Under the pieces are notes generated by a model. It searched no databases. It saw only the letters and a program-made list of their open reading frames with translations, and was not told the origin of the DNA. The position numbers and the translations under genes were made by a program. A DNA stretch of 62,989 bases from an uncultured Bacteroidales bacterium (GTDB taxonomy: Bacteria > Bacteroidota > Bacteroidia > Bacteroidales > Muribaculaceae), in the NCBI GenBank assembly GCA_902768435.1, contig CACXLJ010000011.1, positions 1 through 62,989 of the forward strand, written 5' to 3'. Shown here piece after piece: positions 251-16,097 of the stretch; within the stretch, counting starts at the first letter, position 1; each line of letters starts with the position of its first letter.

Positions 251-3200
251 ATGATAAAAATAAACAATATGTTTAAAAATTCAATTTACGGTTTTGTGGC
301 AGTATTTTCGCTGTCGCTCATGTGCTCTCCTGTAGTTGGCGCTCAAGATTTCGGTCGCAATGAGATTAACGCAGTGGAGCAGCTCGTTCAGTCAAGTCTG
401 CAGAAACACATGGAGATTGGCAAGGTTAAAGTCAATTCTATGGTAGCCGATGGCAACACGATTGTTGTGGACTTGAACGAGAACTTTGGGCAAGCGCCTT
501 TCACGCATGAGTCGGTCGCCATGCTCAAGAACGACATCAAGCAGCAGTTGGGAAGCGAATATGCCAACAGTGATGTCAAGATTACCATTCAAGGAAATGA
601 TATTGAACTCTATTTTGCCGACTTTGATGAGTCATACAGCCGCAAGCATGGCTCCTTCATTACCCCGCAAGACCCCAACCGTCATTATGGCAAAGGCCTT
701 GACAAGAATGTGATTGCCCTGTGGCAGAGTCATGGCTGGTATTTTGAACCCACACTCAACCGTTGGGAATGGCAGCGTGGCCGTCTGATGCAGACGGTTG
801 AGGACATGTATACCCAGAGTTATGTGGTGCCTTTCCTCATTCCCATGTTGGAGAATGCCGGCGCCTATGTGTGGGATGCGCGCGAGCGCGACACACACAG
901 CGTTGCCGTGGTGGTTGACAACGATGGCGCCCATGCCCAGAATGGCTATACCGATGCCAACGGCAAGAAGAAATGGAACACCGGCGCCGAAAATGGTTTT
1001 GCCTATCTGGAAAAAGAATACAAGGATTTTGAGAATCCGTTTGTGACTGGCACCTATCGTCAGGTAGAATCGGTGAAAGACAACAAGAAACTCTCAACTG
1101 CTCACTGGGATGTGGATATGCCCGAGGCAGGAGAGTTTGCCCTTTATATCAGTTACAAGTCGTTGCCAAACAGTGTTAACGATGCACGCTACACCGTCAA
1201 CGACCTGAGTGGTGCGCATGAATATGATGTTGACCAGACCATGGGCGGCGGCGTGTGGGTTTACCTCGCTACCGTGCAACTAAAGAAAGGCCTGAACAAA
1301 GATGTGGTTGTGCTTTCTAATCTGTCGAAGGACGACAAGCGCATGGTTACTGCCGACGCTGTCAAGGTGGGCGGCGGCATTGGCAACATTGTCAGGAAGG
1401 TGGCTCCCTATACCGAAGAGAATCTTGCCATAGCCAAGGAAAATGGCGATGAGAAATATCTTGCCAAGCCTGGCGTGAACTACAAGTATGTGCCTTGTGG
1501 CAACCGTCCCTGGTTCACCATTGGTTCGCGCTACTATCTGCAGTGGGCCGGATTCCCGCATGAGGTGTATTCCACTTCGCAGGGCATTAATGACTATGTC
1601 GACGACTATCGCAGTCGTGGCGAGTGGGTCAACTACCTTGCCGGTGGTTCTGATGTGCTGCCCAATCGTGCAGGTCTGAAGATTCCTGTCGACTTATCTC
1701 TGGCCTTCCACACCGATGCCGGAACGACCAGCGATGATGGTATCATTGGCACACTGGGCATCTATTGCACCATGAAGAACGGCAAGTCGTTTGGTACTTA
1801 CGAGAATGGTACATCGCGCCAGCTTTCTCGCCTCTACACCGATCTTGTCATGAAAGAGATTTGCAACGACATTCGTGCAAAATATGAACCTAACTGGACA
1901 CGGCGCGGACTGCGCGACGCATCGTACTATGAGGCCCGTGTTCCCGAAGTGCCTGCCATGTTGCTCGAGTTGCTGTCGCACCAGAACTTTGCCGACATGA
2001 AATATGGCCTTGACCCTGCCTTCCGTTTCGATGTGAGTCGTGCCATCTACAAGGGCATGCTCAAGTTCATAGCCCAGCGCGACCATCGCGACTATGTGGT
2101 GCAACCGTTGCCCGTCAATAGTTTCGCCATACGTCCCCTGCAGGATAAGGGCGAGTTCCTTCTTTCGTGGAAACCCACAGCCGACACGCAGAGCGACAGT
2201 GCCGACCCCACCAAGTACATTGTGCTGGAGCGCAAGGGCGAGGGTGCTGGCTTTGTTGAGATTGCTACTACCAAAGGCACTGAATATTTAGTTGAAATCA
2301 AAGATAACGAAATACATTCATTCAAGATTATCGCCCTTAACGAGGGCGGCCGTTCCTTCCCAAGCGAGGTGCTCTCCTGTGGTGTTGCTCCTGGTAGCAA
2401 GGGAACTGTGATGGTTGTGAACGGCTTTACCCGTGTGAGTGCGCCCGACTGGTTCGATGCAGGCACCATGGCAGGCTTTGCCGATGAGAAAGACCATGGC
2501 GTGCCCTACATGCAGCAAATCAACTATGTGGGCCCGCAGTTTGAGTTCAACCGTTCGCTTGATTGGCGTGACGATGACGCTGGCGGTTTCGGTGCAAGCC
2601 GTTCCAGCTACGAGAAGCAGGTGGTGGCAGGTAACACCTTCGACTATCCGGCAATTCACGGCAAGGCTATCATGAAGGCTGGCTACTCGTTTGTGTCGAG
2701 CAGTGTGAAGGCTGTTGAAGACAAGGAGATTTATCTCAAGGGCTTCAAGGTGGTCGATTTCATCATGGGCAAACAAAAAGAGGTTCCTAACGGCAGCGGA
2801 TATTATCCCTCTCGATTCAAGATTTTCTCTAATGGCCTGATCGACGCTATTCGTGACTTTACTGCCCAAGGCGGCTCTTTGTTTATGACAGGTGCCTATG
2901 TGGGTAGCGATGTGTGGGACAAGAAGAATGTGAACTATATGGAAACGAACCTTGCCGAGAATGTGCTGGGTTACAAGTGGCTCACCGACCAGGCGTCGCA
3001 GTCAGGCGAGGTGACTACCGTGCCTTCCCAGTTCCAGGAACTCACCGACGGCTTGGACTTCACATTTGTGAACAAACTCAACGACCGTTTCTATGCAGTG
3101 GAGTCGCCCGATGCTATCACACCGAGCGATGACATGGGAGCTACCATCATGCGATACAGCGAGAACAACATCCCCGCAGGCATCGCATCGGACCGAGGCT

Positions 3201-3301
3201 CATATCGCACAGTGGTGCTTGGCTTCCCCTTCGAGACCATTAAGGACGAAGATGCACGCGAGTCGCTCATGAGCGATGTGCTCAAGTTCCTCAACAAATA
3301 A
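251..3301 (+). CDS. Secreted N-acetylmuramoyl-L-alanine amidase (Amidase_3) with inserted golvesin-like domain
   Basis: A 1016-residue exported protein with a signal peptide at about residues 1-31. The Amidase_3 fold appears in two pieces: residues 150-215 carry the SHGWYFE segment (H161) and the TR-D-like region. Residues 480-610 carry AFHTD (H487) and the LLELLSH segment (E573), which match the zinc ligands and catalytic Glu of the family. Between them, residues 250-375 look like a golvesin/Xly carbohydrate-binding domain. A fibronectin-III-like segment follows near 620-715 and an unassigned C-terminal domain near 720-1016. Amidases of this family cut the bond between MurNAc and the stem peptide in the periplasm. 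It is the first of 13 co-directional genes, 46 nt before the next, which suggests it supplies denuded glycan to the salvage pathway. The family call is firm; substrate and activity are inferred. Confidence 0.8.
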   Translation: MIKINNMFKNSIYGFVAVFSLSLMCSPVVGAQDFGRNEINAVEQLVQSSLQKHMEIGKVKVNSMVADGNTIVVDLNENFGQAPFTHESVAMLKNDIKQQLGSEYANSDVKITIQGNDIELYFADFDESYSRKHGSFITPQDPNRHYGKGLDKNVIALWQSHGWYFEPTLNRWEWQRGRLMQTVEDMYTQSYVVPFLIPMLENAGAYVWDARERDTHSVAVVVDNDGAHAQNGYTDANGKKKWNTGAENGFAYLEKEYKDFENPFVTGTYRQVESVKDNKKLSTAHWDVDMPEAGEFALYISYKSLPNSVNDARYTVNDLSGAHEYDVDQTMGGGVWVYLATVQLKKGLNKDVVVLSNLSKDDKRMVTADAVKVGGGIGNIVRKVAPYTEENLAIAKENGDEKYLAKPGVNYKYVPCGNRPWFTIGSRYYLQWAGFPHEVYSTSQGINDYVDDYRSRGEWVNYLAGGSDVLPNRAGLKIPVDLSLAFHTDAGTTSDDGIIGTLGIYCTMKNGKSFGTYENGTSRQLSRLYTDLVMKEICNDIRAKYEPNWTRRGLRDASYYEARVPEVPAMLLELLSHQNFADMKYGLDPAFRFDVSRAIYKGMLKFIAQRDHRDYVVQPLPVNSFAIRPLQDKGEFLLSWKPTADTQSDSADPTKYIVLERKGEGAGFVEIATTKGTEYLVEIKDNEIHSFKIIALNEGGRSFPSEVLSCGVAPGSKGTVMVVNGFTRVSAPDWFDAGTMAGFADEKDHGVPYMQQINYVGPQFEFNRSLDWRDDDAGGFGASRSSYEKQVVAGNTFDYPAIHGKAIMKAGYSFVSSSVKAVEDKEIYLKGFKVVDFIMGKQKEVPNGSGYYPSRFKIFSNGLIDAIRDFTAQGGSLFMTGAYVGSDVWDKKNVNYMETNLAENVLGYKWLTDQASQSGEVTTVPSQFQELTDGLDFTFVNKLNDRFYAVESPDAITPSDDMGATIMRYSENNIPAGIASDRGSYRTVVLGFPFETIKDEDARESLMSDVLKFLNK

Positions 3302-3347: not shown

Positions 3348-4859
3348 ATGGGAAGAATTAACTGCTTCATTCCTTTTGCAAATGCCGAACAGGCAAAACT
3401 CACCGTTCAGAACCTGAAGGCTGAAGAACTGGTCAGTAAAATCTATTTGCTTGCAACCGACGACTCTCAAGGCACTATTGATGGTTGTGAAATCATCAAA
3501 GTGAAGAACCTTGCTGCTTCGAGCACTATTAAGGCTATTGCCGAATATGCCGATGCCGACTATGTGCTTTATTACAACAAGTATAATACGCTCAAATTTG
3601 CTCCCTTTGCAGTAGAGCGCTTTGTGAAACTTGCTGACGACTCTCAAGCAGGCATGCTCTATGCCGATCACTATAATGTGACCGAGGGCGGTGCAGTCAA
3701 GGCTCCCGTGATCGACTACCAGTTCGGTAGTCTGCGCGATGACTTCGACTATGGCTCGGTTTACTTCTTCTGCGGTTGCTGTTTCAAGAAGGCCGCCGCA
3801 GCCATGAAGGCCGACTATGAGTTTGCCGGACTCTATGACCTGCGTCTCAAGCTCTCGCAGTTTGCCAACATTTGCCACATCAACGAATTCCTTTATAGCG
3901 ATGTGGAACTCGACACCCGCAAGAGCGGCGAGAAGATTTTTGACTATGTTGATCCACGCAATCGTGGCCGTCAAATCGAGATGGAGGCTGCATGCACCGA
4001 GCATCTGAAGGAAATTGGCGGTTATCTGGCTCCCACCAAGGTGGTGGATGGCAAGGAAGTTCCCAATTTCAAGCACATTGAGTTTGACCATGACAAGTTT
4101 GAAGTGGAGGCTACAGTGATGATTCCTGTGCGCAACCGCATACGCACCATTCGCGACGCTATCGACAGCGTGCTGCGTCAGAAGACCAACTTCAAGTTCA
4201 ACCTCATGGTGGTTGACAACTTCTCGACCGACGGTACCCGCGAGGCTATTGCCGAATATAATGATCCTCGCCTTATCCATATCATTGCTGACTATTATGA
4301 TATGGGCATTGGCGGTTACTGGAATTTGGCTGCTCATCATGAAAAGGCCGGCAAGTTTGTGGTGCAGCTCGACAGCGATGACATGTATAAGGATGAGACC
4401 ACGCTGCAAACCATGGTGAACGCCTTCTATGAGCAAAATGTGGCCATGGTGGTTGGCACCTACCTGATGACCGACATCAACTGCAATCCCATACCTCCCG
4501 GCGTGATTGACCACAAGGAATGGACTCCCGAAAACGGCCGCAACAATGCCTTGCGCATCAATGGTCTGGGTGCTCCCCGTGCATTCTACACCCCGGTGCT
4601 TCGCGACGTGAAGATTCCTAATACCAGCTATGGTGAAGACTATGCGTTGGGCCTGAACATTTCGCGCACTTACCAGATTGGTCGCGTGTACACACCTGTG
4701 TATCTGTGCCGCCGCTGGGACGACAACAGCGACGCGAGCCTTGATGTGGAAAAGATGAACCGTAACAACCTCTACAAAGACCGCATCCGCACATGGGAGC
4801 TCCAGGCACGCATTGCTTTGAACAAGAAAGGTAATTGCTGCTGCAAGTGTGACGAATAA
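3348..4859 (+). CDS. Tandem family 2 glycosyltransferase, cytosolic
   Basis: A 503-residue protein without signal peptide or membrane segment. Residues 252-500 are a clear GT2 (GT-A) domain: it opens with MIPVRNR, has the nucleotide-sugar VVDNFSTDGT segment, and has the metal-binding acidic motif DSDD at 342-345. Residues 1-240 look like a second, degenerate GT-A fold (ATDD, then DADYVLYY) without a convincing DXD, so it may be a pseudo-transferase half. The C-terminus ends in a cysteine cluster (CCCKC), which is unusual. It sits 46 nt after the amidase and 9 nt before the DUF4922 gene. Donor and acceptor sugars cannot be read from sequence; context suggests a cell-wall or muropeptide substrate. 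Confidence 0.8.
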   Translation: MGRINCFIPFANAEQAKLTVQNLKAEELVSKIYLLATDDSQGTIDGCEIIKVKNLAASSTIKAIAEYADADYVLYYNKYNTLKFAPFAVERFVKLADDSQAGMLYADHYNVTEGGAVKAPVIDYQFGSLRDDFDYGSVYFFCGCCFKKAAAAMKADYEFAGLYDLRLKLSQFANICHINEFLYSDVELDTRKSGEKIFDYVDPRNRGRQIEMEAACTEHLKEIGGYLAPTKVVDGKEVPNFKHIEFDHDKFEVEATVMIPVRNRIRTIRDAIDSVLRQKTNFKFNLMVVDNFSTDGTREAIAEYNDPRLIHIIADYYDMGIGGYWNLAAHHEKAGKFVVQLDSDDMYKDETTLQTMVNAFYEQNVAMVVGTYLMTDINCNPIPPGVIDHKEWTPENGRNNALRINGLGAPRAFYTPVLRDVKIPNTSYGEDYALGLNISRTYQIGRVYTPVYLCRRWDDNSDASLDVEKMNRNNLYKDRIRTWELQARIALNKKGNCCCKCDE

Positions 4860-4868
4860 TCATGATTG

Positions 4869-5822
4869 ATGAATCTTGTTGAAGACATAGAAGTACTTCA
4901 TGCTCGGCAAATGTGCAATTGGCCGTTAGCGCATGACAATTATGCTGCCCTTGATGGGCTGCTCACCCGTGAGTTATGGCTTGATGACGGCGAGGGCAGG
5001 TCGTGTGCTCGCATTGTCATGCAGCATAATCCTGAGCGCGTGCGTTCTACGGCTGCCGATGTGAGTCCTGAGGCAATCAGCCGGCGCCCCTGTTTCCTGT
5101 GCAAGGAAAATCAGCCTCCTGAGCAGGAAACAGTGATGTGGCGGTATTCGCAAGAGAATGGCCTGGAAAGGCTGTACAAGATTCAAATCAATCCCTATCC
5201 CATCTTTAAGCGACATCTCACCATCGCCTCGATGCAACATGAAGAGCAAAGGTGCCGATACAGGGAGATGATGGCGCTTGCACACGACCTGCACGGCTAT
5301 GTGATTATGTTTAACGGCGAGGGTTGTGGCGCATCGGCGCCCGATCACCTGCATTTCCAGGCTACGCTGCAGGACGAGTTGCCCTTGTGTGCCGAACTTG
5401 AGGCTCGCAATGGCGATGGTCTGGACTCCTGCTATGGCAGTTTCAATGAACTGTGGATGGACAACAAATTGGGTAGGCAACTCATCTATATCAGGGCTCA
5501 TGCCATGAATAGTGCTCTCATTTCTGACATGAACATTGCTCTGAATGGCTGGCGACGCAATGCCTTGTGCTGGTTTAAGGAGGATGTTTGGCACTTCGTC
5601 TATTTCCCGCGTAAAGCAGGTCGGCCTTCGTGTTATGGACAGGAGCCTGGTCAATATCTGGTGAGTCCTGCAGCTGCCGAGTATGGCGGCGTGTGGGTGT
5701 TGCCCCGCAAACAGGATTTCTATGGCCTCACACCTGAACTTATCGGTTCGTTTTACGAGGAACTGTCGTTCAGTGCTCGTGAAATGGAATTCATTTACAA
5801 CGATTACGGAAGAGTAAATTAA
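4869..5822 (+). CDS. DUF4922 protein, HIT/GalT-like nucleotidyltransferase or phosphorylase
   Basis: A 317-residue soluble protein. The ATG at 4869 is preferred over the TTG directly before it. A CFLC pair (C75, C78) could be half of a zinc site. The stretch INPYPIFKRHLTIAS followed by GASAPDHLHFQ (H160, H162) is the histidine-triad-like core of the HIT/GalT/GDP-sugar phosphorylase superfamily, which transfers nucleotidyl groups through a histidine. It lies 9 nt after the glycosyltransferase and 13 nt before the SpoIID gene, so the three are almost surely co-transcribed. A role in making or breaking a nucleotide sugar used by the neighbouring transferase is plausible but unproven. The superfamily call is firm, the reaction unknown. 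Confidence 0.75.
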   Translation: MNLVEDIEVLHARQMCNWPLAHDNYAALDGLLTRELWLDDGEGRSCARIVMQHNPERVRSTAADVSPEAISRRPCFLCKENQPPEQETVMWRYSQENGLERLYKIQINPYPIFKRHLTIASMQHEEQRCRYREMMALAHDLHGYVIMFNGEGCGASAPDHLHFQATLQDELPLCAELEARNGDGLDSCYGSFNELWMDNKLGRQLIYIRAHAMNSALISDMNIALNGWRRNALCWFKEDVWHFVYFPRKAGRPSCYGQEPGQYLVSPAAAEYGGVWVLPRKQDFYGLTPELIGSFYEELSFSAREMEFIYNDYGRVN

Positions 5823-5835
5823 AAAACAAGTATAT

Positions 5836-7149
5836 ATGAACACACAACCCACAGTGAAAGTTGGCATCATGAACGAGCCCTCGGTTGAGTTCGTCTTGAA
5901 TGGCAATTACAAAGTGAATGGCAGTGATTACACGGGCCCTCAATCGGTGTCGTGTATCGATGGCAAGGTGTCGTGGAACAGCATGTGCTGCGATGAACTG
6001 CTTTTTGAACCTGCCGACTATGAGTCATGCTCCTTCACGCTCAAGGATGTGACCATTGGCGTGAGTTTCCACTGGAAACGCAAGGAGGACCAGACCTTTA
6101 AAGGCTCACTCAAACTCATCATAGAAGACGACAAGGTCACGGCCATCAATATCCTTCCCATCGAAGATTACCTGCTCAGCGTCATCTCGAGCGAGATGAG
6201 CGCCAATGCCTCACTGGAACTGCTCAAGGCTCACGCTGTGATATCGCGCAGCTGGCTCTTGGCTCAAATCCAGAAGGATACGGTGAATGAACTGACTCAG
6301 GGCTTTGAACAGAATCAGAATCCTGACGAGGAAATCAAGTGGTGGGATCGTGACGACCATGTGAACTTTGATGTGTGTGCCGATGACCATTGCCAGCGTT
6401 ATCAGGGCATTACCCGCGCTTCGACCGACACTGTGCTGCAAGCCATCAAGGCCACTTGGGGGCAGGTGCTCATGTATGGCGGCGACTTGTGCGATGCCCG
6501 CTTCTCCAAGTCGTGTGGTGGCGTGTACGAGGAGTTTGAAAACTGCTGGGAACACAAGCATCATGGTTATCTGGTAGCGCGACGCGACAGTGCTGATGAG
6601 ATGAATTTCCCCGACCTGACACGCGAGGACATTGCTGCCGAGTGGATTCTCTCGGCGCCCGAAGCCTTCTGCAACACGCGCGACCCCGAAATTCTCTCGC
6701 AGGTGCTTAACGACTATGACCAGGAGACCAAAGATTTTTATCGCTGGAAAGTGGAGTACACTCAGGAGCAGATTTCTGAACTCATTGCTCGCCGCACTGG
6801 TACCGATTATGGCCGCATTCGCGATCTCGAACCCGTGGCGCGTGGCACCTCGGGCCGTCTTTATAAACTCAAAATTGTGGGCGAGAAGTGTTCTAAAACC
6901 ATAGGCAAGGAACTTGCCATTCGCTATGCGCTGAGTGAATCGTGTCTTTACAGTTCGGCCTTCGTTGTCGAGAAGCATGATGTTGACGGCGATGGTTACC
7001 CCGACAAGTTTGTGCTGCGTGGAGCAGGGTGGGGCCACGGCGTAGGTCTGTGCCAAATTGGTGCCGCAGTGATGGGTGCCAAGGGCTATAACTACAAGGA
7101 TATTTTGCTCCACTACTTCATTGGTGCCACCATTGAGCAGCAGTATTAA
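5836..7149 (+). CDS. SpoIID/LytB domain protein without signal peptide
   Basis: A 437-residue protein of the SpoIID/LytB family, whose sporulation member is a lytic transglycosylase that cleaves peptide-free glycan strands. The core motif SSEM (E120, the equivalent of the catalytic Glu) is followed by LKAHAVISRSW; the zinc-type motif CADDHC has C181, H185 and C186; and the C-terminal GAGWGHGVGLCQIGA box is intact. Unusually, the N-terminus (MNTQPTVKVGIMNEP) is polar, and only 13 nt separate the gene from the preceding stop, so there is no room for a hidden signal peptide. The protein should therefore be cytosolic or exported by another route. Family call firm; location and substrate uncertain. 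Confidence 0.85.
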   Translation: MNTQPTVKVGIMNEPSVEFVLNGNYKVNGSDYTGPQSVSCIDGKVSWNSMCCDELLFEPADYESCSFTLKDVTIGVSFHWKRKEDQTFKGSLKLIIEDDKVTAINILPIEDYLLSVISSEMSANASLELLKAHAVISRSWLLAQIQKDTVNELTQGFEQNQNPDEEIKWWDRDDHVNFDVCADDHCQRYQGITRASTDTVLQAIKATWGQVLMYGGDLCDARFSKSCGGVYEEFENCWEHKHHGYLVARRDSADEMNFPDLTREDIAAEWILSAPEAFCNTRDPEILSQVLNDYDQETKDFYRWKVEYTQEQISELIARRTGTDYGRIRDLEPVARGTSGRLYKLKIVGEKCSKTIGKELAIRYALSESCLYSSAFVVEKHDVDGDGYPDKFVLRGAGWGHGVGLCQIGAAVMGAKGYNYKDILLHYFIGATIEQQY

Positions 7150-7170: not shown

Positions 7171-9108
7171 ATGAAACAGTATATAGCAAAAGTTACTAAA
7201 AGAAATCCATGGGCATGGATACCGACATTGTATTTTGCCCAAGGTTTGCCTTATGTGGCAGTGATGACTATTTCGGTTATCATGTATAAAAGGTTGGGTA
7301 TGTCAAATACAGATATTGCCCTTTACACTGGTTGGCTTGGGCTTCCATGGGTTATAAAACCTTTTTGGAGTCCGTTTGTTGATATCATCAGAACTAAACG
7401 ATGGTGGGTTTTGATAATGCAATGGGTAATAGCTATTGCTTTGGCAGGCATTGCTTTCACGATACCCACATCTTGGTGGGTACAGCTCACATTTGCAGTG
7501 TTTATGCTCATGGGATTTGCATCGGCTACTCATGACATTGCTGCAGATGGTTTTTATATGCTTGCACTTACAGAACATGAACAATCGCTCTATGTTGGTA
7601 TTCGAAGTACTTTTTATAGGATTGCAACAGTTATGGGGCAAGGAATACTTGTTATTATTGCAGGCTTGATCGAAATGAATTCAGGATTGAAACCGGTTGA
7701 GGTCAGTTTTGACGTGAATCCCAAAATTGCTCAGTCGGAATATGCATTGCCAGTAGTCACTGTATCAGAATCTCAATCGAATCAGGAAATACAGTTTATA
7801 ACAAGTGCTTCAAGTATTACAATTGGAGTTTCAACACCAGAAACAGTTCAAAACCAAGCTTTCGCTGATTTTTCTCAATTAATGCTGGATTCGGTTAATA
7901 ACCTGAATGTAATAAATGGATTTAATACGACAGGTGAAATTATAGATCGAAGTAAGAGTTTATCTGTTGTGAAGGATGAACGATGGAGTGGTTTTCGCAT
8001 GTGGTTAAGCCGAACTTTTGGAGATCATATTTGGGGCAAAAAGTCAGAGAAAGCTGCTGATGAGAATGTGGATAACAATATTGCTATCGTTGCTATTCGA
8101 CTGAATAAAAAGCCAGAAACTGGTAAAGACTATATTCTCAATGTTTCCCAAAAAGAAGGTGATACAGGCATAAAATTAGTATCAGATGGTCGATTGGTAT
8201 TTAATGAAAGTAATTGGGAGAAATTAGCCTATCTATATTATACAATTGACCATAAAATTAAGGATAGGGTATCAGCTAAGTTTGCTGGTTCATCAGGAAA
8301 TATTCCATTGGCTTGGGCTATCGTTTTTGTAGTATTATCTCTTTTTTTCTTTGCTGTCGTTCTCTATCATACATGGGCATTGCCCAAGCCATCAACAGAT
8401 ACCAACCAAGAGAAGAAGACCACACGGCAAATCTTTTCTGAATTTGTTGATACCTTTAAGACCTTCTTCACAAAGTTTCCATTATGGCAGACTATTGCAG
8501 CTATACTTTTCATGCTCTTCTATCGCTTTCCAGAAGCTCAATTGACCAAAATAATTCAGCCGTTCCTACTTGATCCGATTAATGCTGGTGGTCTTTCTCT
8601 GAGCACTGGCGAAGTTGGCCTAGTCTATGGAACTGTTGGTATTATTGGTTTAACAATTGGTGGTATTATAGGTGGTATTGTTGCTGCCAAAGGCGGTCTA
8701 AAGAAATGGCTTCAGCCCATGGCATGGAGTATGTCTTTAACATGTTTGACCTTTATATATCTAGCATTTACTCAACATCAAGACTTGCTTACAATTAATA
8801 TTTGTGTGTTTGTTGAACAGTTTGGTTATGGCTTTGGTTTCACGGCCTATATGCTCTATCTAATTTATTATAGTGAAGGTAAATATAAAACAGCTCATTA
8901 TGCGATTTGTACAGGCTTTATGGCTTTATCTATGATGACTGGTATGATAGCAGGTTGGATTCAAGAAACTGTTGGTTATCGCAGTTTCTTTGTTTGGACA
9001 ATGATATGTTGTGCTATTACTATCATTGTTGCCATGATTGTGAAAGTGGATCCTAAGTTTGGTCTTAAGAATAATGAAGACAATACTAATGTGGACAAGA
9101 AAGAATAA
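7171..9108 (+). CDS. ampG: AmpG-like muropeptide permease (MFS) with large periplasmic insert
   Basis: A 645-residue MFS permease. Residues 12-95 contain AmpG hallmarks (NPWAWIPTLYFAQGLPY, WSPFVDIIRTKRWW) and ATHDIAADGF lies near 119-128. AmpG imports GlcNAc-anhydroMurNAc (peptides) in Gram-negative bacteria and is usually about 430-500 residues. Here about 207 residues (171-377) lie between transmembrane helices 5 and 6, a loop predicted to face the periplasm, with several Ser/Thr/Val-rich beta-like stretches. The gene is visibly richer in A/T at third positions than both neighbours, which may mean a different history or only the codon needs of a membrane protein. It lies 21 nt after the SpoIID gene and 49 nt before namZ. 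Substrate is inferred from family and operon. Confidence 0.75.
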   Translation: MKQYIAKVTKRNPWAWIPTLYFAQGLPYVAVMTISVIMYKRLGMSNTDIALYTGWLGLPWVIKPFWSPFVDIIRTKRWWVLIMQWVIAIALAGIAFTIPTSWWVQLTFAVFMLMGFASATHDIAADGFYMLALTEHEQSLYVGIRSTFYRIATVMGQGILVIIAGLIEMNSGLKPVEVSFDVNPKIAQSEYALPVVTVSESQSNQEIQFITSASSITIGVSTPETVQNQAFADFSQLMLDSVNNLNVINGFNTTGEIIDRSKSLSVVKDERWSGFRMWLSRTFGDHIWGKKSEKAADENVDNNIAIVAIRLNKKPETGKDYILNVSQKEGDTGIKLVSDGRLVFNESNWEKLAYLYYTIDHKIKDRVSAKFAGSSGNIPLAWAIVFVVLSLFFFAVVLYHTWALPKPSTDTNQEKKTTRQIFSEFVDTFKTFFTKFPLWQTIAAILFMLFYRFPEAQLTKIIQPFLLDPINAGGLSLSTGEVGLVYGTVGIIGLTIGGIIGGIVAAKGGLKKWLQPMAWSMSLTCLTFIYLAFTQHQDLLTINICVFVEQFGYGFGFTAYMLYLIYYSEGKYKTAHYAICTGFMALSMMTGMIAGWIQETVGYRSFFVWTMICCAITIIVAMIVKVDPKFGLKNNEDNTNVDKKE

Positions 9109-9157: not shown

Positions 9158-10399
9158 ATGAAAAAGTATATAATGACAATAGCGCTGTGCACACTGGCAG
9201 TTGTGACCGCCATTGCACAGGTGAAGCCTGGAATCGAGGTGCTGCGCGACATGGACTTCGCACCCTTGCAGGGCAAGCGGGTGGGGCTGGTGACCAACCC
9301 CAGCGGCATTGACAACAACTTGAAGTCGACTGTTGACATCCTTAACGAGGCTCCCGGTGTGAAACTCGTCGCCCTTTATGGACCTGAGCACGGCGTGCGC
9401 GGCAATGCGCATGCTGGTGACGCTGTGGGCGATGATGTCGATGCCAAGACAGGCATCAAGATGTATTCGCTCTTTGGCAAGACCCACAAACCCACCCCCG
9501 AGATGCTGCGCGACATTGATGTGCTCGTCTATGACATCCAGGACATAGGTTGCCGCAGTTACACCTTCTATGCCACGATGGGCGTGTGCATGGAGGCGTG
9601 CGCCGAGAATGGAAAAGAATTTATGGTGCTTGACCGACCCAATCCGCTGGGTGGCAACAAAGTGGAGGGTAATCTGGTGGAAGAGGGTTATTATTCCTTT
9701 GTGAGCAAATATAAGATTCCTTACATTTACGGTCTCACTCCTGGCGAACTTGCCACATTCCTCAACGAGGAGGGCGGCTACATCAAGGGCAAGGCCAAAC
9801 TCACCGTCATTCCCATGCAAGGTTGGAAGCGAAGCATGAAGTTCCGCGACACAGGCATGCCCTGGGTGCTGCCTTCACCGCAGATTCCCACCCCCGAGAG
9901 TGCCTTCTTCTACCCGTTGAGCGGCATTCTGGGCGAACTCTACATTTTCAATACAGGTATTGGCTACACCCTGCCATTCCAGCTCTTCTGCGCTACTTGG
10001 GCTGATGCCGACCGCGTGGCCGATGCCATGAATGCGCTCAATCTTCCTGGCCTCAAGTTCCGTCCCATCAATGTGAAGCCCTTCTTTGCCACGAGTGTCG
10101 ATGTGAATCAGGAAAAGAAGGAAGTGCATGGCGTGCAGACCTACATCACCGATGTTGACGCAGCCAATCTCACGCTCACCCAGTTCTACTTCTTGCAAGT
10201 GATGCATGAGCTTTATCCCGATGTGAAAATCTTTGAGCAGAATCCCAAGCGCTATGCCATGTTCGACAAGGTGTGTGGCACAAGCAAGATTCGCGAACTG
10301 TTCACTCGCCGTTACAAGGTGGAGGATATGGCCGACTACTGGAACAAGGATGCCGATGCATTCCGTACGCTTTCGAGCAAATACTACTTGTATCGCTAA
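9158..10399 (+). CDS. namZ: Exo-beta-N-acetylmuramidase NamZ (DUF1343)
   Basis: A 413-residue protein with a signal peptide (residues 1-20) and the DUF1343 signatures GLVTNPSG, YGPEHGVRG (E77 in the conserved PEHG), VYDIQDIGCRSYTF and DRPNPLGG. Characterised members release terminal MurNAc from the non-reducing end of peptide-free glycan in the periplasm. It lies between the AmpG-like permease and the D-lactate dehydrogenase-like gene, upstream of MurNAc kinase and MurQ, which is the setting expected for a salvage enzyme. Length is normal for the family and the ATG at 9158 gives a full signal peptide. Confidence 0.87.
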   Translation: MKKYIMTIALCTLAVVTAIAQVKPGIEVLRDMDFAPLQGKRVGLVTNPSGIDNNLKSTVDILNEAPGVKLVALYGPEHGVRGNAHAGDAVGDDVDAKTGIKMYSLFGKTHKPTPEMLRDIDVLVYDIQDIGCRSYTFYATMGVCMEACAENGKEFMVLDRPNPLGGNKVEGNLVEEGYYSFVSKYKIPYIYGLTPGELATFLNEEGGYIKGKAKLTVIPMQGWKRSMKFRDTGMPWVLPSPQIPTPESAFFYPLSGILGELYIFNTGIGYTLPFQLFCATWADADRVADAMNALNLPGLKFRPINVKPFFATSVDVNQEKKEVHGVQTYITDVDAANLTLTQFYFLQVMHELYPDVKIFEQNPKRYAMFDKVCGTSKIRELFTRRYKVEDMADYWNKDADAFRTLSSKYYLYR

Positions 10400-10420: not shown

Positions 10421-13213
10421 ATGAACAGACTTTATAAGACATACTTACGCAACATCTCCTGGTTCATCCCTGATGATAGGGTGTACACCGACGACCTGCG
10501 CTGCCTGGCGTGGGGCACCGATGCGGGTTTCTATCGCCATGTGCCCAAGGTTGTGGTGCGCTCGAAGAACGAGTGGGAGGTGTCACGGCTGCTCAAGGAG
10601 GCTCATGCGCTGGGGCTGCCAGTCACTTTCCGTGCGGCAGGCACCAGCCTGTCGGGACAGACTAACACCGACTCTATCCTGATAGTGGCCGGCAAGAATT
10701 GGGAAGATTATGAAATCTCGCCCGATGGTTCGGTCATCACCATGCAGCCGGGTCTGGTGGGTGCCCAAGTCGATGCCTTGCTCAAGCCCTATGGCCGCAT
10801 ATTCTCGCCCGATCCCGCATCGAAGGCTTCGGCCATGGTGGGTGGCATCGTCATCAACAATGCTTCGGGCATGAGTTGCGGCACACACGCCAACAGCGAC
10901 AAGATACTGCACTCGATGCGCATTGTGTTTGCCGACGGCACGGTGCTTGACACAGGCGATGAGCAGAGTCGTGAGCTGTTCAGGAAAACGCATCCTGAGT
11001 TCATTGTTGGCATCGAACGCCTTCGTGACGAAGTCAATGCCGACAAGGAACTGGTGGAGCGCATTCGTCATAAGTATGCCATCAAGAATGTGACGGGACT
11101 CAATATCTCGCCCTTCGTCAATTTTACCGATCCTTTCGACATCATCACTCACCTGATGGTGGGCAGCGAGGGTACGCTGGGCTTTGCTAGCCAGTTCACC
11201 ATGAGCACTGATCATCTTTATCCGCACTCGGCTAGCGCTATGCTCTATTTCGAAGATATGCGCAAGGCATGCGAGTGTGTGGTGAAAATGAAGAGCGGCC
11301 CTGTGGAGTGTGCTGAGATTCTCGACAAGAAGTCGCTTGCTTCGGCCGAAGATACTACGGGTGAGGGGCTTACCGCAATACTGGTACGCACCTCGGCCGA
11401 CACCAAGGAGCAGCTCGACGAGAACATCGCTGCCATCATGAAGATACTTGATGACTTCACACTCTATGTTCCAGCCAAGTTTACCGATAACCCCGAGGAA
11501 TATGGCAAATATTGGGCCATTCGCTCTGGCATCTTCCCTGTGGTGGCTGGAACTCGTCCGTTGGGCACTACCGTAATTATCGAAGACATTGCTTTCCACA
11601 TCGAGGATTTGCCCGATGCCACCGTTGACCTTGCCAATATGCTCAACGAGCACGGCTACGACGACAGCTGCATTTATGGGCACGCTCTTGAGGGCAATTA
11701 CCACTTCATCATTGCCCAATCATTCGATACACCCGAGGAGGTGGAACGATACAAGAACCTCATGAACGAGATTGTGAAACTCGTAGTCGACAAGTACGAT
11801 GGCTCACTCAAGGCTGAGCATGGCACAGGCCGCAACATGGCCCCCTTTGTCAAGAAAGAGTGGGGCGAGAAGGCTTTCGAGGTCATGCGTAGGGTGAAGC
11901 AGTTGTTCGACCCCAAAGGCATCCTGAATCCTGGTGTCATTTTCAACGACGACCCCGACTGCTTCATCAAGGATGTGAAGCCTATGCCGCTCACTAACCC
12001 CAATGTGGACAAGTGCATGGAATGCGGTTTCTGCGAGGTGAACTGCCTGAGCAGCGGTTTCTCATTGTCGTCGCGTCAGCGCATTGTGGCTCAACGCGAA
12101 ATTTCACGACTCAAGACTACCGGCGAAGATCCCAAGCGGCTTGCCCGTCTTGAGAAACTATACAGATATTACGGTAACAGCACCTGTGCTGCCGATGGCT
12201 TGTGCAGCACATCCTGCCCCATGAAAATCAATACGGGCGACATGACTCACGATCTGCGTGCCCAGAGCCTGCCAGAAGGCAGCATGGGATACAAGACCGG
12301 TCGTTATTGTGCCCGTCATCTCAATGGTGTGCGCAAGGGACTGATAGGTTTGCTCTATATGGCCGATGCTGCTCACTTCGTGCTGCGCGATGGTGGTGTG
12401 GCATTCACTGGCAAGGCGCTCCACAAGGTGGGAGTGCCGCTCTGGACACCGTCGCTGCCCAAGGCACACAAGGCAAAGAGCGTGGCAATGCCCGAAACCA
12501 ACAAGAAGGTGGTGTATTTCCCCAGTTGCCTGAACCAGACGATGGGGCATGGCCATAAGGGTGAGAAAACCGACCTTGCCGACAAGGTGGTGGCTTTCTT
12601 GAAAAAGGCTGGATGGCAAGTCATCTTCCCGCAAAACATGAAAAAAATGTGCTGCGGCATGATTTGGGAAAGCAAAGGCATGCCCGACCTTGCCAAACAA
12701 AAGGCACTTGAACTTGAGGAGGCTATGTGGCAGGCGAGCAATGAGGGCGCTTATCCTGTGGTGTGCGACCAGAGCCCTTGCCTGCATCACATGCGCAAGC
12801 ACTTCACGCGCTTCAAACCACTGGAACTCATGGAGTTTGTGCACGACTATGTGGCACAGGATTTGGATTTCCATGCTACCGACGAGCCTATTGCTCTGCA
12901 TCTCACCTGCTCAACAAAACTCATGGGAATCGATGGCAAAGTCCTTGATTTGGCAAAGCGCTGCTCATCGCAAGTGCTCGTTCCCGATGGAGTGGGGTGC
13001 TGTGGTTTTGCTGGCGACAAGGGATTCACGCATCCCGAACTCAATGCTTATGCCTTGCGTAAGTTGCGACCTCAAATCGAGAATGCTGGAATCAAGCGTG
13101 GTTTCTCCAATAGCCGCACCTGCGAGATAGGACTCACCACCAACAGCGGCATACCTTACCAGTCGCTCATTTACTTGATTGACGAATGTACAACTACTAA
13201 AAATGATATATAA
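10421..13213 (+). CDS. FAD/Fe-S D-lactate dehydrogenase-like oxidoreductase
   Basis: A 930-residue fusion. Residues about 40-215 are a PCMH-type FAD-binding domain (FRAAGTSLSGQ, GLVGAQVDALL), followed by a FAD-linked oxidase C-terminal domain with LKAEHGTGRNMAPFV. From C532 there is a 4Fe-4S motif CMECGFCEVNC and near 587 a second cysteine set (CAADGLCSTSCP). Two CCG-type cysteine domains (CCGMIWE, GCCGFAGDKG) complete the layout known from D-lactate and glycolate dehydrogenases. No signal peptide is seen. MurQ produces D-lactate, so its place five genes before the end of the MurNAc pathway strongly suggests D-lactate oxidation to pyruvate, with electrons passed to quinone. A glycolate or 2-hydroxyglutarate substrate cannot be excluded. 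Its stop overlaps the next start (TAATG). Confidence 0.8.
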   Translation: MNRLYKTYLRNISWFIPDDRVYTDDLRCLAWGTDAGFYRHVPKVVVRSKNEWEVSRLLKEAHALGLPVTFRAAGTSLSGQTNTDSILIVAGKNWEDYEISPDGSVITMQPGLVGAQVDALLKPYGRIFSPDPASKASAMVGGIVINNASGMSCGTHANSDKILHSMRIVFADGTVLDTGDEQSRELFRKTHPEFIVGIERLRDEVNADKELVERIRHKYAIKNVTGLNISPFVNFTDPFDIITHLMVGSEGTLGFASQFTMSTDHLYPHSASAMLYFEDMRKACECVVKMKSGPVECAEILDKKSLASAEDTTGEGLTAILVRTSADTKEQLDENIAAIMKILDDFTLYVPAKFTDNPEEYGKYWAIRSGIFPVVAGTRPLGTTVIIEDIAFHIEDLPDATVDLANMLNEHGYDDSCIYGHALEGNYHFIIAQSFDTPEEVERYKNLMNEIVKLVVDKYDGSLKAEHGTGRNMAPFVKKEWGEKAFEVMRRVKQLFDPKGILNPGVIFNDDPDCFIKDVKPMPLTNPNVDKCMECGFCEVNCLSSGFSLSSRQRIVAQREISRLKTTGEDPKRLARLEKLYRYYGNSTCAADGLCSTSCPMKINTGDMTHDLRAQSLPEGSMGYKTGRYCARHLNGVRKGLIGLLYMADAAHFVLRDGGVAFTGKALHKVGVPLWTPSLPKAHKAKSVAMPETNKKVVYFPSCLNQTMGHGHKGEKTDLADKVVAFLKKAGWQVIFPQNMKKMCCGMIWESKGMPDLAKQKALELEEAMWQASNEGAYPVVCDQSPCLHHMRKHFTRFKPLELMEFVHDYVAQDLDFHATDEPIALHLTCSTKLMGIDGKVLDLAKRCSSQVLVPDGVGCCGFAGDKGFTHPELNAYALRKLRPQIENAGIKRGFSNSRTCEIGLTTNSGIPYQSLIYLIDECTTTKNDI

Positions 13214-14367
13214 TGGCACAATCTAAACGATTATTAGCACTCGACATATTGCGAGGCATCACCATCGCAGGCATGCTGCTGGTCAACAACCCCGGCACAT
13301 GGAGCAGCATTTATGCTCCACTTGAGCATGCCGAATGGGAAGGGTTGACCCCAACTGACCTGGTATTCCCCTTCTTCATGTTTGTTATGGGTGTTTCCAT
13401 GTTTTTCTCACTCAGGAAATTCAATTTCTCACTTAACGCCCATGTCTTTCTCAAGATTGTGAAGCGCACCGTTATTCTCTTCCTCATTGGTTGGGCGGTG
13501 TCGTGGTTTGCCGTGTGGCTTCGTGGATTGTTCAATCCCGAAGTCGACTTTGTCGATCGCGCTATCAACCACCTGCGCATTCTGGGTGTGTTCCAGCGAC
13601 TGGCTTTGGTCTACTTCTTTGGGGCGATAATTGCCGTGACCCTGAAACATCGCTTCATCCCGTGGATGATAGGACTCATTCTGGTAGCCTATGCCATTAT
13701 TATGGCGGTTGGACATGGCTACGACATCAGCGCCGACAACATCATTGCCCGCATCGATAACGCTGTGCTGGGTGAGGACCACATGTATAAGGAAGGTGTC
13801 TTCGATGGCATCATTGCATTTGACCCTGAAGGCATCTTGAGCACCTTGCCTTGCATTGCGCATGTGCTCATCGGTTTCATGGTGGGCAAACTCATCTTGA
13901 CTTATCATAACAACACCGAGCGCATTGCCAAACTGGCATTATTCGGTTTTGCCATGATGCTGGGCGGTTGGTTGCTCCAGTATGGCATTCCCTGTGGCAA
14001 GAAGATGTGGTCGAGCACCTTTGTACTCATCACTTGCGGCATGGCTTCCTGTTTGCTGGCATTGCTCATCTACATCATCGATGTGAAGGGACGCAACAAG
14101 TGGTGCCGTTTCTTCCAATCGTTCGGTGTGAATCCGCTGTTCTGCTACCTGGTGGGAACCATTCTCTCCATAGCTTTCAGCACAATCAAATTTGGCACCA
14201 ATGCCGCTGGCGATCCCGTCAGCATCCACTCGCTCATTCACGATGCCTGCAAAGCGGTGACCTGGTCACCCGAGTCGGCTTCATGCCTCTATGCCATCGT
14301 TTTTGTGCTCATCTGCTGGCTGTTTGGCTATATCTTGTATAAGAAGAAAATTTACATAAAAATATAA
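13213..14367 (+). CDS. DUF5009 multi-span membrane protein, candidate MurNAc transporter
   Basis: A 384-residue polytopic membrane protein with about ten hydrophobic segments. It opens with RLLALDILRGITIAGMLLVN and has the conserved LEHAEWEGLTPTDLVFPFF block of the DUF5009/heparan-alpha-glucosaminide N-acetyltransferase-like family. Its start overlaps the previous stop by 1 nt and it ends 5 nt before the kinase gene, so translation is probably coupled. In Tannerella forsythia a MurNAc transporter is encoded next to murK and murQ, and position makes this the best candidate here; I cannot confirm that the two are homologous. An acetyltransferase acting on sugar at the membrane is the alternative. 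Confidence 0.7.
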   Translation: MAQSKRLLALDILRGITIAGMLLVNNPGTWSSIYAPLEHAEWEGLTPTDLVFPFFMFVMGVSMFFSLRKFNFSLNAHVFLKIVKRTVILFLIGWAVSWFAVWLRGLFNPEVDFVDRAINHLRILGVFQRLALVYFFGAIIAVTLKHRFIPWMIGLILVAYAIIMAVGHGYDISADNIIARIDNAVLGEDHMYKEGVFDGIIAFDPEGILSTLPCIAHVLIGFMVGKLILTYHNNTERIAKLALFGFAMMLGGWLLQYGIPCGKKMWSSTFVLITCGMASCLLALLIYIIDVKGRNKWCRFFQSFGVNPLFCYLVGTILSIAFSTIKFGTNAAGDPVSIHSLIHDACKAVTWSPESASCLYAIVFVLICWLFGYILYKKKIYIKI

Positions 14368-14372
14368 CTACT

Positions 14373-15218
14373 ATGATTTTAATTGCTGATTGCGGATCAA
14401 CCAAGATTAATTGGTGTCTGCTCAATGGAAATGAAAAGGTCGCTCAAATTTTTACGACCGGAATGAATGCTTTGTTGATGACCGAAGAGGAAATGACTGC
14501 CCGCATCAAGGACGAGCTCATGCCTCATTTGGCCAACTACAAGATTGACGAGATTTATTACTATGGTGCAGGTATTATCTCTGACGGAATCAGGCAGCAA
14601 GTGGTGAATGCACTCAAGGCTAATATATCGACCGCAGCCAAGATTGAAGTCGACAGCGACCTGCTTGCCGCTGCACGCGCGCTTTGCCAGCGTAAACCTG
14701 GCATCGCATGCATCATTGGCACGGGATCTAATTCTTGCTACTATGATGGCGAGAAGGTGGTCGACAATGTTTCTCCGCTTGGCTACATTCTGGGCGACGA
14801 GGGCAGTGGTGCCGTGCTTGGCAAACTGCTGGTGGGCGATGTGCTCAAGAAACAGTTGCCCGAACACATTTGCCAGAAGTTCCTTGACGAGTACAAGCTT
14901 GACCGCACCAAGATTATTGAGGCAGTTTATCGCAAACCTGCCGCTAACCGTTTCTTGGCTCAGTTTGCTCCCTTCCTTGAGCGCAACATGGATGTGCCCG
15001 AGGTGCGCAACATCGTGTTCCGCTCGTTCACCGACTTCTTTAAGCGCAATGTTGCCAACTACAAGAATTACCAGGAACTGCCTTGCAACTTTGTGGGTTC
15101 TATCGCACTCAAGCAAAAGGAGACGCTCATGCAGGCAGCCAGTGAATTGGGCATCACCATAGGACGCATTATTCAAGACCCGATGGAAGGTCTCGTGAAG
15201 TATCATTCCACCATGTAA
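14373..15218 (+). CDS. murK: BadF/BadG-type sugar kinase, probable MurNAc kinase
   Basis: A 281-residue soluble ASKHA-fold kinase of the BadF/BadG/N-acetylglucosamine-kinase family. The phosphate-1 loop is ADCGSTKINW at residues 4-13, the second phosphate motif is IIGTGSNSCYYDG, and GDEGSGAVLGK completes the site. It lies directly before murQ (57 nt), so it most likely phosphorylates MurNAc (and perhaps GlcNAc) at the 6-position to feed the etherase. The kinase family is certain; substrate preference between MurNAc and GlcNAc comes from position only. Confidence 0.8.
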   Translation: MILIADCGSTKINWCLLNGNEKVAQIFTTGMNALLMTEEEMTARIKDELMPHLANYKIDEIYYYGAGIISDGIRQQVVNALKANISTAAKIEVDSDLLAAARALCQRKPGIACIIGTGSNSCYYDGEKVVDNVSPLGYILGDEGSGAVLGKLLVGDVLKKQLPEHICQKFLDEYKLDRTKIIEAVYRKPAANRFLAQFAPFLERNMDVPEVRNIVFRSFTDFFKRNVANYKNYQELPCNFVGSIALKQKETLMQAASELGITIGRIIQDPMEGLVKYHSTM

Positions 15219-15275: not shown

Positions 15276-16097
15276 ATGGCTTTTGTCAAAATTAGTGAGC
15301 AACCATCGCTCTATAACGATCTTGAGAAGAAATCGGTACTTGAGATTCTCACTGAAATCAATCAAGAGGACCATAAGGTGGCCGATGCTGTGCAGAAGGC
15401 GATTCCCCAAATCGAGAAGCTCGTCACAGGCATTGTCGAGCGCATGAAGGAGGGTGGACGCATCTTCTATATGGGCGCTGGAACATCGGGCCGGCTTGGT
15501 GTGCTTGATGCCAGCGAGATTCCACCCACATTTGGCGTCGGTTCGGGCTGGGTCATTGGACTCATTGCCGGTGGCGATACTGCCCTGCGCAATGCCGTGG
15601 AAAAGGCCGAGGACGATGAGCACCAGGGATGGAAGGATTTGCTCGAACACGGCGTGAACGAACTCGATACCGTCATTGGCATTGCAGCATCGGGTACAAC
15701 ACCCTATGTGATTGGTGCTCTGCGTGATGCTCGTGAACACGGATGTCTCACGGGCTGCATCACAAGCAACCCCGATGCGCCCATCTCGCAAGTGGCCGAG
15801 GTACCCATCGAGATGATTGTGGGGCCCGAGTATGTTACCGGCAGCAGTCGCATGAAGTCGGGAACCGGGCAGAAACTCATCTGCAATATGATTTCAACCA
15901 CTGCCATGATACAGATGGGGCGTGTGAAGGGTAACAAGATGGTGAACATGCAGCTCACCAACAACAAGCTTGTGGACCGAGGCACGCGCTGGGTGGCCGA
16001 GGAGTTGAAACTGTCGTATGACGAGGCACGCCAGTTGCTGCTTGAGCATGGTTCGGTGAAAAAAGCCACCGATGCCTATCGCAAACAAAATCAGTAA
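15276..16097 (+). CDS. murQ: N-acetylmuramic acid 6-phosphate etherase
   Basis: A 273-residue SIS-domain protein with the MurQ signature AGTSGRLGVLDASEIPPTF. E81 and E112 (AVEKAEDD) correspond to the two catalytic glutamates of E. coli MurQ. Further family blocks are GTTPYV, VGPEYVTGSSRMKSGT and NMQLTNNKL. The enzyme removes the lactyl ether of MurNAc-6-phosphate to give GlcNAc-6-phosphate and D-lactate in the cytosol. It is slightly shorter than the E. coli protein but no domain is missing. It sits between the kinase and the SGNH esterase (5 nt gap). Confidence 0.95.
   Translation: MAFVKISEQPSLYNDLEKKSVLEILTEINQEDHKVADAVQKAIPQIEKLVTGIVERMKEGGRIFYMGAGTSGRLGVLDASEIPPTFGVGSGWVIGLIAGGDTALRNAVEKAEDDEHQGWKDLLEHGVNELDTVIGIAASGTTPYVIGALRDAREHGCLTGCITSNPDAPISQVAEVPIEMIVGPEYVTGSSRMKSGTGQKLICNMISTTAMIQMGRVKGNKMVNMQLTNNKLVDRGTRWVAEELKLSYDEARQLLLEHGSVKKATDAYRKQNQ

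Follow-up and report, generated by a model that had tools for sequence, protein, structure and literature searches.

A co-inherited glycosyltransferase, DUF4922 and SpoIID trio in a wall-sugar salvage locus of Muribaculaceae, with a possible part in recycling without AnmK

The trio and its locus

In a 62,989-nucleotide (nt) stretch of DNA from an uncultured Bacteroidales bacterium of the Muribaculaceae (assembly GCA_902768435.1, contig CACXLJ010000011.1; the whole stretch analysed is called here the window), three adjoining + strand genes encode a family 2 glycosyltransferase (GT2, 3348–4859), a DUF4922 protein (4869–5822, with an alternative TTG start at 4866) and a protein with a SpoIID/LytB domain (5836–7149). 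GT2 and DUF4922 are separated by 9 nt, DUF4922 and SpoIID by 13 nt. These genes are inherited together and sometimes fused and, in the order to which the window belongs, they go with an AmpG-like permease and with a scarcity of the kinase AnmK. An initial annotation of the window had singled out these three genes, with the same spacers and domains, and had placed them inside a salvage locus for wall sugars; both descriptions were confirmed, NamZ, the AmpG-like permease, a kinase and MurQ lying in the same run.

This run occupies the first 16 kb of the window and comprises ten + strand genes, from an amidase-like protein to MurQ. The first of them (251–3301) carries a Golvesin_C domain (66.3 bits) and an Amidase_3 match of 23.1 bits, below the cut-off of 27. 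Downstream of the trio come an AmpG-like muropeptide permease of the major facilitator superfamily (7171–9108; TIGR00901 at 166 bits, below the 350-bit cut-off) and the exo-beta-N-acetylmuramidase NamZ (9158–10399, by family match), which we take to be the product called YbbC in Tannerella forsythia. They are followed by a GlcD-like FAD/4Fe-4S oxidoreductase (10421–13213, by family match), a NagX-like membrane protein (13213–14367; 137 bits, below the cut-off of 480), which occupies the slot of T. forsythia murT by position only, a BadF/BadG-type sugar kinase, MurK-like by position (14373–15218; 23.4 and 28.5 bits, both below cut-offs), and finally MurQ, the N-acetylmuramic acid (MurNAc) 6-phosphate etherase (15276–16097; TIGR00274 at 309 bits, cut-off 302). 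The locus is thus of the Tannerella salvage type, with ampG, namZ, a kinase gene and murQ in one run; AmpG and the kinase score below their curated cut-offs and gene order supports both. The substrate of the oxidoreductase could plausibly be the D-lactate freed by MurQ.

The gene order matches that of T. forsythia Tanf_08345-08385, given in passages of PMC5388701 and PMC7670621 as xanthan lyase, gtf, gtf, lytB, ampG, ybbC, murT, murK and murQ. This operon is a single transcript by reverse transcription PCR and is controlled by GppX (PMC5388701); it is called glycosylation-related and has been tied to peptidoglycan recycling and to protein glycosylation (PMC5388701, PMC7670621). The likeness is one of gene order and names, Tanf_08350, Tanf_08355 and Tanf_08360 being the presumed counterparts of the trio and the second gtf being presumed to be DUF4922. 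Unlike that operon, the window carries the additional oxidoreductase gene at 10421–13213, a gene that does not figure in the nine-gene T. forsythia list above. Since the operon has already been mapped (PMC5388701), the gene order itself is not new. The initial annotation was right that the trio has no assigned biochemical role: in the available text of both papers, the gtf and lytB genes are named without a tested role (PMC5388701, PMC7670621).

Co-inheritance and fusion of the three genes

Two genome samples were used, 149 genomes drawn evenly over the window's order and 247 genomes from the phylum; the window's genome (G000) and G230 belong to both. In the order sample, with thresholds of E 1e-20 for SpoIID and E 1e-60 for GT2, DUF4922 occurs in 36 genomes, SpoIID in 37 and GT2 in 37, and all three occur together in 36. 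The lone partners are a SpoIID in G341 (93% complete) and a weaker GT2 in G257 (61% complete). In the phylum sample, SpoIID is present in 36 of the 37 genomes with a strong DUF4922 match and in none of the 210 others, among which we placed three genomes with weak DUF4922 matches (G027, G136 and G160, <27 bits).

The three genes also occur together where they are not adjacent. DUF4922 and SpoIID lie more than 2.5 kb apart or are split in 14 of the 36 order genomes: two pairs are 4.6 kb apart, two are separated by about 29 kb and 1.4 Mb on one contig, and ten are on different contigs. An alignment search with DUF4922 confirmed 580 stretches, the best 80 of which were examined as loci; being the best-scoring they lean towards relatives of the window, and the 149- and 247-genome samples are less biased. 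Within a radius of 1.5 kb, both GT2 and SpoIID accompany DUF4922 at 62 of these 80 loci, SpoIID only at 7, GT2 only at 7 and neither at 4, some of the loci being cut by contig ends.

Moreover, at least 7 of the 36 trio genomes in the order sample encode fused members. GT2 is joined to DUF4922 in G230, G380 and G384, and DUF4922 to SpoIID in G254, G271 and G356 (as well as at loci L042 and L052 and in protein P0190). In G371, all three are read in a single frame of 1006 residues, with the contig end falling inside SpoIID. Loci L116 and L118 are further examples of where natural fusions are seen.

Random association in other genomes had been named beforehand as the refutation of a shared pathway. 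It was tested and fails, all 36 order genomes with DUF4922 having both partners and 36 of the 37 phylum genomes having SpoIID. A chance neighbourhood was thus rejected because of co-inheritance, co-occurrence of non-adjacent genes and fusion, and GT2, DUF4922 and SpoIID almost certainly constitute one functional module.

Variations in GT2 copy number were also seen. A second, more divergent GT2 copy lies immediately upstream of the trio at seven loci (L006, L012, L021, L024, L026, L028 and L029). G230 has two GT2 copies (L112 and L113), one fused to DUF4922 and the other adjoining SpoIID at a salvage locus on a separate contig.

Features of the three proteins

The SpoIID protein of the window scores well above cut-off with both domain models (PF08486, 85.6 bits, cut-off 23; TIGR02669, 171.6 bits, cut-off 83.3). 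Its Glu120, in the SEM motif, aligns with the catalytic Glu of the solved SpoIID proteins, which corresponds to E88 in Bacillus subtilis and E101 in Clostridioides difficile (in passages of PMC6221140 and PMC6635528). The SEM Glu and a glycine-rich motif are kept in 67/67 homologues, and Glu120 is invariant together with a Cys/His quartet (H175, C181, H185 and C186) over 33 aligned rows. The domain, the catalytic Glu and the quartet are common to the SpoIID lytic transglycosylases of B. subtilis, C. difficile and Waddlia. In the C. difficile protein, substitution of E101, C140 or H145 abolishes in vitro activity, according to a passage of PMC6221140, and the Waddlia protein is described as a lytic transglycosylase that also gives mostly non-anhydro products from denuded glycan (PMC6635528, in part).

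These relatives differ in their location. Signal peptides are present at the N-termini of the B. subtilis and Waddlia proteins (in the available text of PMC6635528) and absent from the clade of the window, whose members are sometimes fused to DUF4922. In a hydropathy test, a hydrophobic N-terminus was found in 3/67 GT2, 0/79 DUF4922 and 2/67 SpoIID homologues, against 55/56 NamZ and 49/54 amidases among the exported neighbours, a clean separation that bears out the earlier statement that no trio member has an export signal. Neither an export signal nor a membrane anchor was seen on SpoIID, no 19-residue window exceeding 1.6 in any of the 67 homologues. A signal peptide hidden upstream was rejected, several homologues' frames having no space for one. 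A side case is a Bacteroides SpoIID of the same clade (L059:10807-12621), in which DUF559, an endonuclease-like domain, is inserted within the SpoIID domain.

The GT2 protein has two GT-A domains by fold, residues 1–492 of its model aligning to the chondroitin polymerase K4CP, which likewise carries two GT-A domains per chain. The placement of the domains differs from that of K4CP (root-mean-square deviation 21 A). The C-terminal domain carries the motifs DSDD and GEDY, present in 67/67 full-length homologues. An invariant DxD was found only in the C-terminal domain (DSDD, over 35 rows) and not in both, which makes a two-sugar polymerase unlikely. In comparisons of structure models, heparosan synthase is among the GT2 enzymes that the catalytic domain resembles.

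The initial annotation had called DUF4922 HIT/GalT-like. The superfamily was right, with a HIT-type fold and HxHxQ in 79/79 homologues; by fold, the nearest relative is the diadenosine tetraphosphate (Ap4A) phosphorylase Apa2, matched over its full length. Fold and motif are shared with Apa2, plant GDP-L-galactose phosphorylase (GGP) and GalT, although sequences are barely related and the family has a conserved CxxC pair. Ap4A_phos_N gave weak matches in 17/23 members (best E 0.0011) and ATP_transf (PF09830), the domain at the C-terminus of Apa-type enzymes, matched 1/23 at E 0.14, the fold match spanning that part as well. Against solved structures, a single DUF4922 sequence gave no match, whereas a profile weakly retrieved Apa2 (best E 0.0025) along with one chance-level ubiquitin ligase.

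Association with AmpG, AnmK and MurQ

An AmpG-like permease is encoded in all 36 trio genomes of the order sample and in 13 of the 113 others, and its gene lies near the trio at 64 of the best 80 loci. AnmK shows the opposite distribution, with 4/36 trio genomes against 94/113 others (Fisher 4e-15); in the window's own genome, PF03702 gave no match at E 1e-20. Within the 49 genomes with an AmpG-like permease, AnmK occurs in 4/36 with the trio and in 10/13 without it (2.6e-5), such that 46 of the 49 have the trio or AnmK and 3 have neither. The exclusion is weaker in the phylum sample, where AnmK is found in 15/37 DUF4922 genomes and 155/210 others.

A correlated-evolution test on an rpoB tree gave p 0.004 for trio and AnmK and 6e-9 for trio and AmpG. 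The tree holds 138 of the 149 genomes. Eight were dropped for want of an rpoB match at 1e-150 and three for a split or partial rpoB (G293, G306 and G314); none of these 11 has the trio, and G341 and G255 were kept with a partial rpoB.

The link with AmpG is also visible outside the order. At L144, L149 and L151, AmpG, SpoIID, DUF4922 and GT2 genes each lie at most one gene apart, with a kinase gene close by, of BadF type at L144 (26% identity to the window's kinase over about 200 residues) and assigned by clustering at L149 and L151.

MurQ occurs in 19/36 trio genomes and 11/113 others. It is neither necessary nor sufficient, and a MurQ-dependent pathway was rejected. The proposal that GT2 replaces the glucosaminidase NagZ was unsupported: NagZ-like matches, none above the curated cut-off and many of them from frames about 1000 residues long, occur in 28/36 trio genomes and 102/113 others (Fisher 0.08).

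Possible function of the trio

The module probably handles a wall sugar imported by AmpG. The reading we favour, still tentatively, is that the trio opens and processes imported N-acetylglucosaminyl-1,6-anhydro-MurNAc (GlcNAc-anhMurNAc) in the cytosol, in genomes where AnmK is mostly absent. While co-inheritance, fusions, intact catalytic motifs and the AmpG and AnmK counts are results, the enzymatic steps that follow are what we infer. The amidase-like protein would strip peptides outside the cell and AmpG would carry GlcNAc-anhMurNAc into the cytosol. Where AnmK is missing, the anhydro ring has to be opened in another way, and a site that forms the 1,6-anhydro ring, like that of lytic transglycosylases, can open it if reversed. 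It is quite possible that SpoIID, the only trio member suited to the task, opens the anhydro sugar in this manner, attacking the 1,6-anhydro bond, either water or a sugar serving as the acceptor, and yielding GlcNAc-MurNAc units; its predicted cytosolic placement, without export signal, fits an imported substrate. The retained Glu and Cys/His quartet and the non-anhydro products of the Waddlia enzyme speak in favour of this step. In the least certain steps, whose assignment we regard as doubtful, GT2 would use a nucleotide sugar to make or extend the acceptor, and this nucleotide sugar would be made or recovered by DUF4922 via a nucleotidyl-His intermediate. Where a MurK-like kinase and MurQ are present, they could then take over the MurNAc.

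The AnmK route, of the E. coli type, would share the proposed class of substrate, a cytosolic anhydro-muramyl sugar. AnmK converts anhMurNAc to MurNAc-6-phosphate by phosphorylation (PMC7670621, in part); the trio, unlike this route, contains no kinase. In T. forsythia, passages of the same paper report that AmpG takes up GlcNAc-anhMurNAc, that growth occurs on the disaccharide and is restricted on free anhMurNAc, and that no AnmK ortholog is predicted, the recycling strategy there 'remains to be explored' (PMC7670621). This growth pattern fits if the substrate is the disaccharide. For P. gingivalis, that paper reports a lack of AnmK and a release of fragments.

Several points weigh against this interpretation. 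We know of no lytic transglycosylase that runs in reverse, and GT2 and DUF4922 are loosely assigned, a hydrolase alone needing neither. SpoIID is missing from one phylum genome (G223) that has the other two genes, four of the best 80 loci have DUF4922 with neither partner within 1.5 kb and, outside the order, GT2-DUF4922 often lies among genes absent from the salvage locus, neighbour families d3, d5 and d6 recurring around it at L132, L137, L143 and L150. AnmK and DUF4922 coexist in the four order and 15 phylum genomes already mentioned, and the control Bacteroides ihuae matches DUF4922, AnmK, AmpG and MurQ, so that replacement is a tendency and not a rule. The tree test draws on a single gene, and the trio and AnmK change only about 12 and 10 times on it; tests of this type are over-confident when changes are few. 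With MurQ in only 19 of 36 trio genomes, the fate of the product varies. The AmpG-like matches of all 49 genomes fall under the family's curated cut-off, and AmpG function has been demonstrated in print for the T. forsythia homologue alone. The T. forsythia authors also suggest that weak growth on anhMurNAc perhaps comes from poor import or slow metabolism (PMC7670621, in part), so the growth contrast is no proof of a disaccharide substrate.

The initial annotation had envisaged that the trio makes, remodels or stores a sugar polymer. In such a scheme, DUF4922 would furnish the nucleotide sugar from which GT2 builds a cytosolic glycan, a reserve derived from recycled wall sugars that SpoIID would trim or mobilise again. 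The resemblance of the GT2 model to the two-domain polymerase K4CP and of its catalytic domain to heparosan synthase among other GT2 enzymes goes in this direction, and making followed by trimming would suit a transferase that is fused with a glycan-cleaving enzyme or linked to one. However, the N-terminal GT-A domain without invariant DxD speaks against a two-sugar polymerase, we know of no such polymer, and the scheme leaves unexplained the AmpG-like permease in 36/36 and AnmK in 4/36 trio genomes. These two associations favour the processing of imported GlcNAc-anhMurNAc; the polymer proposal was not borne out as worded and is unlikely.

An envelope glycan is quite unlikely. Here the acceptor of GT2 would be lipid-linked or a protein, and the trio would help to glycosylate the surface or proteins, with the salvage locus no more than a convenient operon. 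Consistent with this, part of PMC5388701 describes the T. forsythia operon as glycosylation-related and ties it to protein glycosylation, and a GT4-type gene lies between SpoIID and GT2/DUF4922 at L134, L139, L147 and L148. However, the N-termini of the trio are not hydrophobic, DUF4922 resembles a phosphorylase rather than a glycan-assembly enzyme, and the AmpG link is tight.

We give little credence to a variant in which the trio assembles muramyl glycan in the cytosol: SpoIID, as a synthase, would draw its energy from the strained anhydro bond in imported GlcNAc-anhMurNAc and join disaccharides to a GT2-made primer, with DUF4922 balancing the nucleotide-sugar pool. Wall glycan would then be stored in the cytosol or re-used directly, with no need of kinases or UDP-MurNAc. 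Nucleotide-sugar housekeeping appears improbable. In the manner of GDP-glucose or GDP-galactose phosphorylases, DUF4922 would here phosphorolyse a nucleotide sugar that is wrong or in surplus, and GT2 and SpoIID would draw on the same pool; the SpoIID pairing and fusions are left unexplained. An idle SpoIID, a non-catalytic muropeptide-binding subunit that senses AmpG cargo and regulates the two transferases, agrees with pairing and fusion and is highly improbable, given that the conservation of the SEM Glu and glycine-rich motif (67/67) and of the Cys/His quartet (33 rows) is hard to account for without catalysis.

If the processing of imported GlcNAc-anhMurNAc holds, SpoIID would act inside the cell rather than on the wall and DUF4922 would gain a role. 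How the anhydro end sugar is re-used without AnmK has been raised in print for T. forsythia (PMC7670621, in part), and in Caulobacter the recycling of wall fragments has a bearing on resistance to beta-lactams (PMC13046382, in part). The trio, which in the order sample is inherited together with AmpG-like permeases, is a testable three-gene candidate for recycling without AnmK. In the open-licence literature searched, DUF4922 was found only in the context of plant GGP, SpoIID with AmpG or a glycosyltransferase in a Bacteroides context gave Chlamydia only, SpoIID with AnmK gave Acinetobacter only, and no paper was found on a NamZ muramidase in Tannerella or on AnmK-lacking use of anhydro-MurNAc.

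Other observations at related loci

At the four GT4-bearing loci cited above, all outside the order, this gene was assigned by clustering only at L147, and a GT4-type glycosyltransferase is a possible fourth partner there. A protein with glycoside hydrolase family 9 (GH9) and polysaccharide deacetylase parts lies between SpoIID and AmpG at L034, L037, L046 and L078, annotated in L078 and assigned by clustering in the others. The protein beside DUF4922 in L091 was considered as a MurB and rejected, the scan having given an FAD_binding_4 domain only; similar matches to it occur in L098 and L101. Further along the window, 18433–22038 encodes a BspA-type leucine-rich repeat protein with a dockerin-type domain at its C-terminus.

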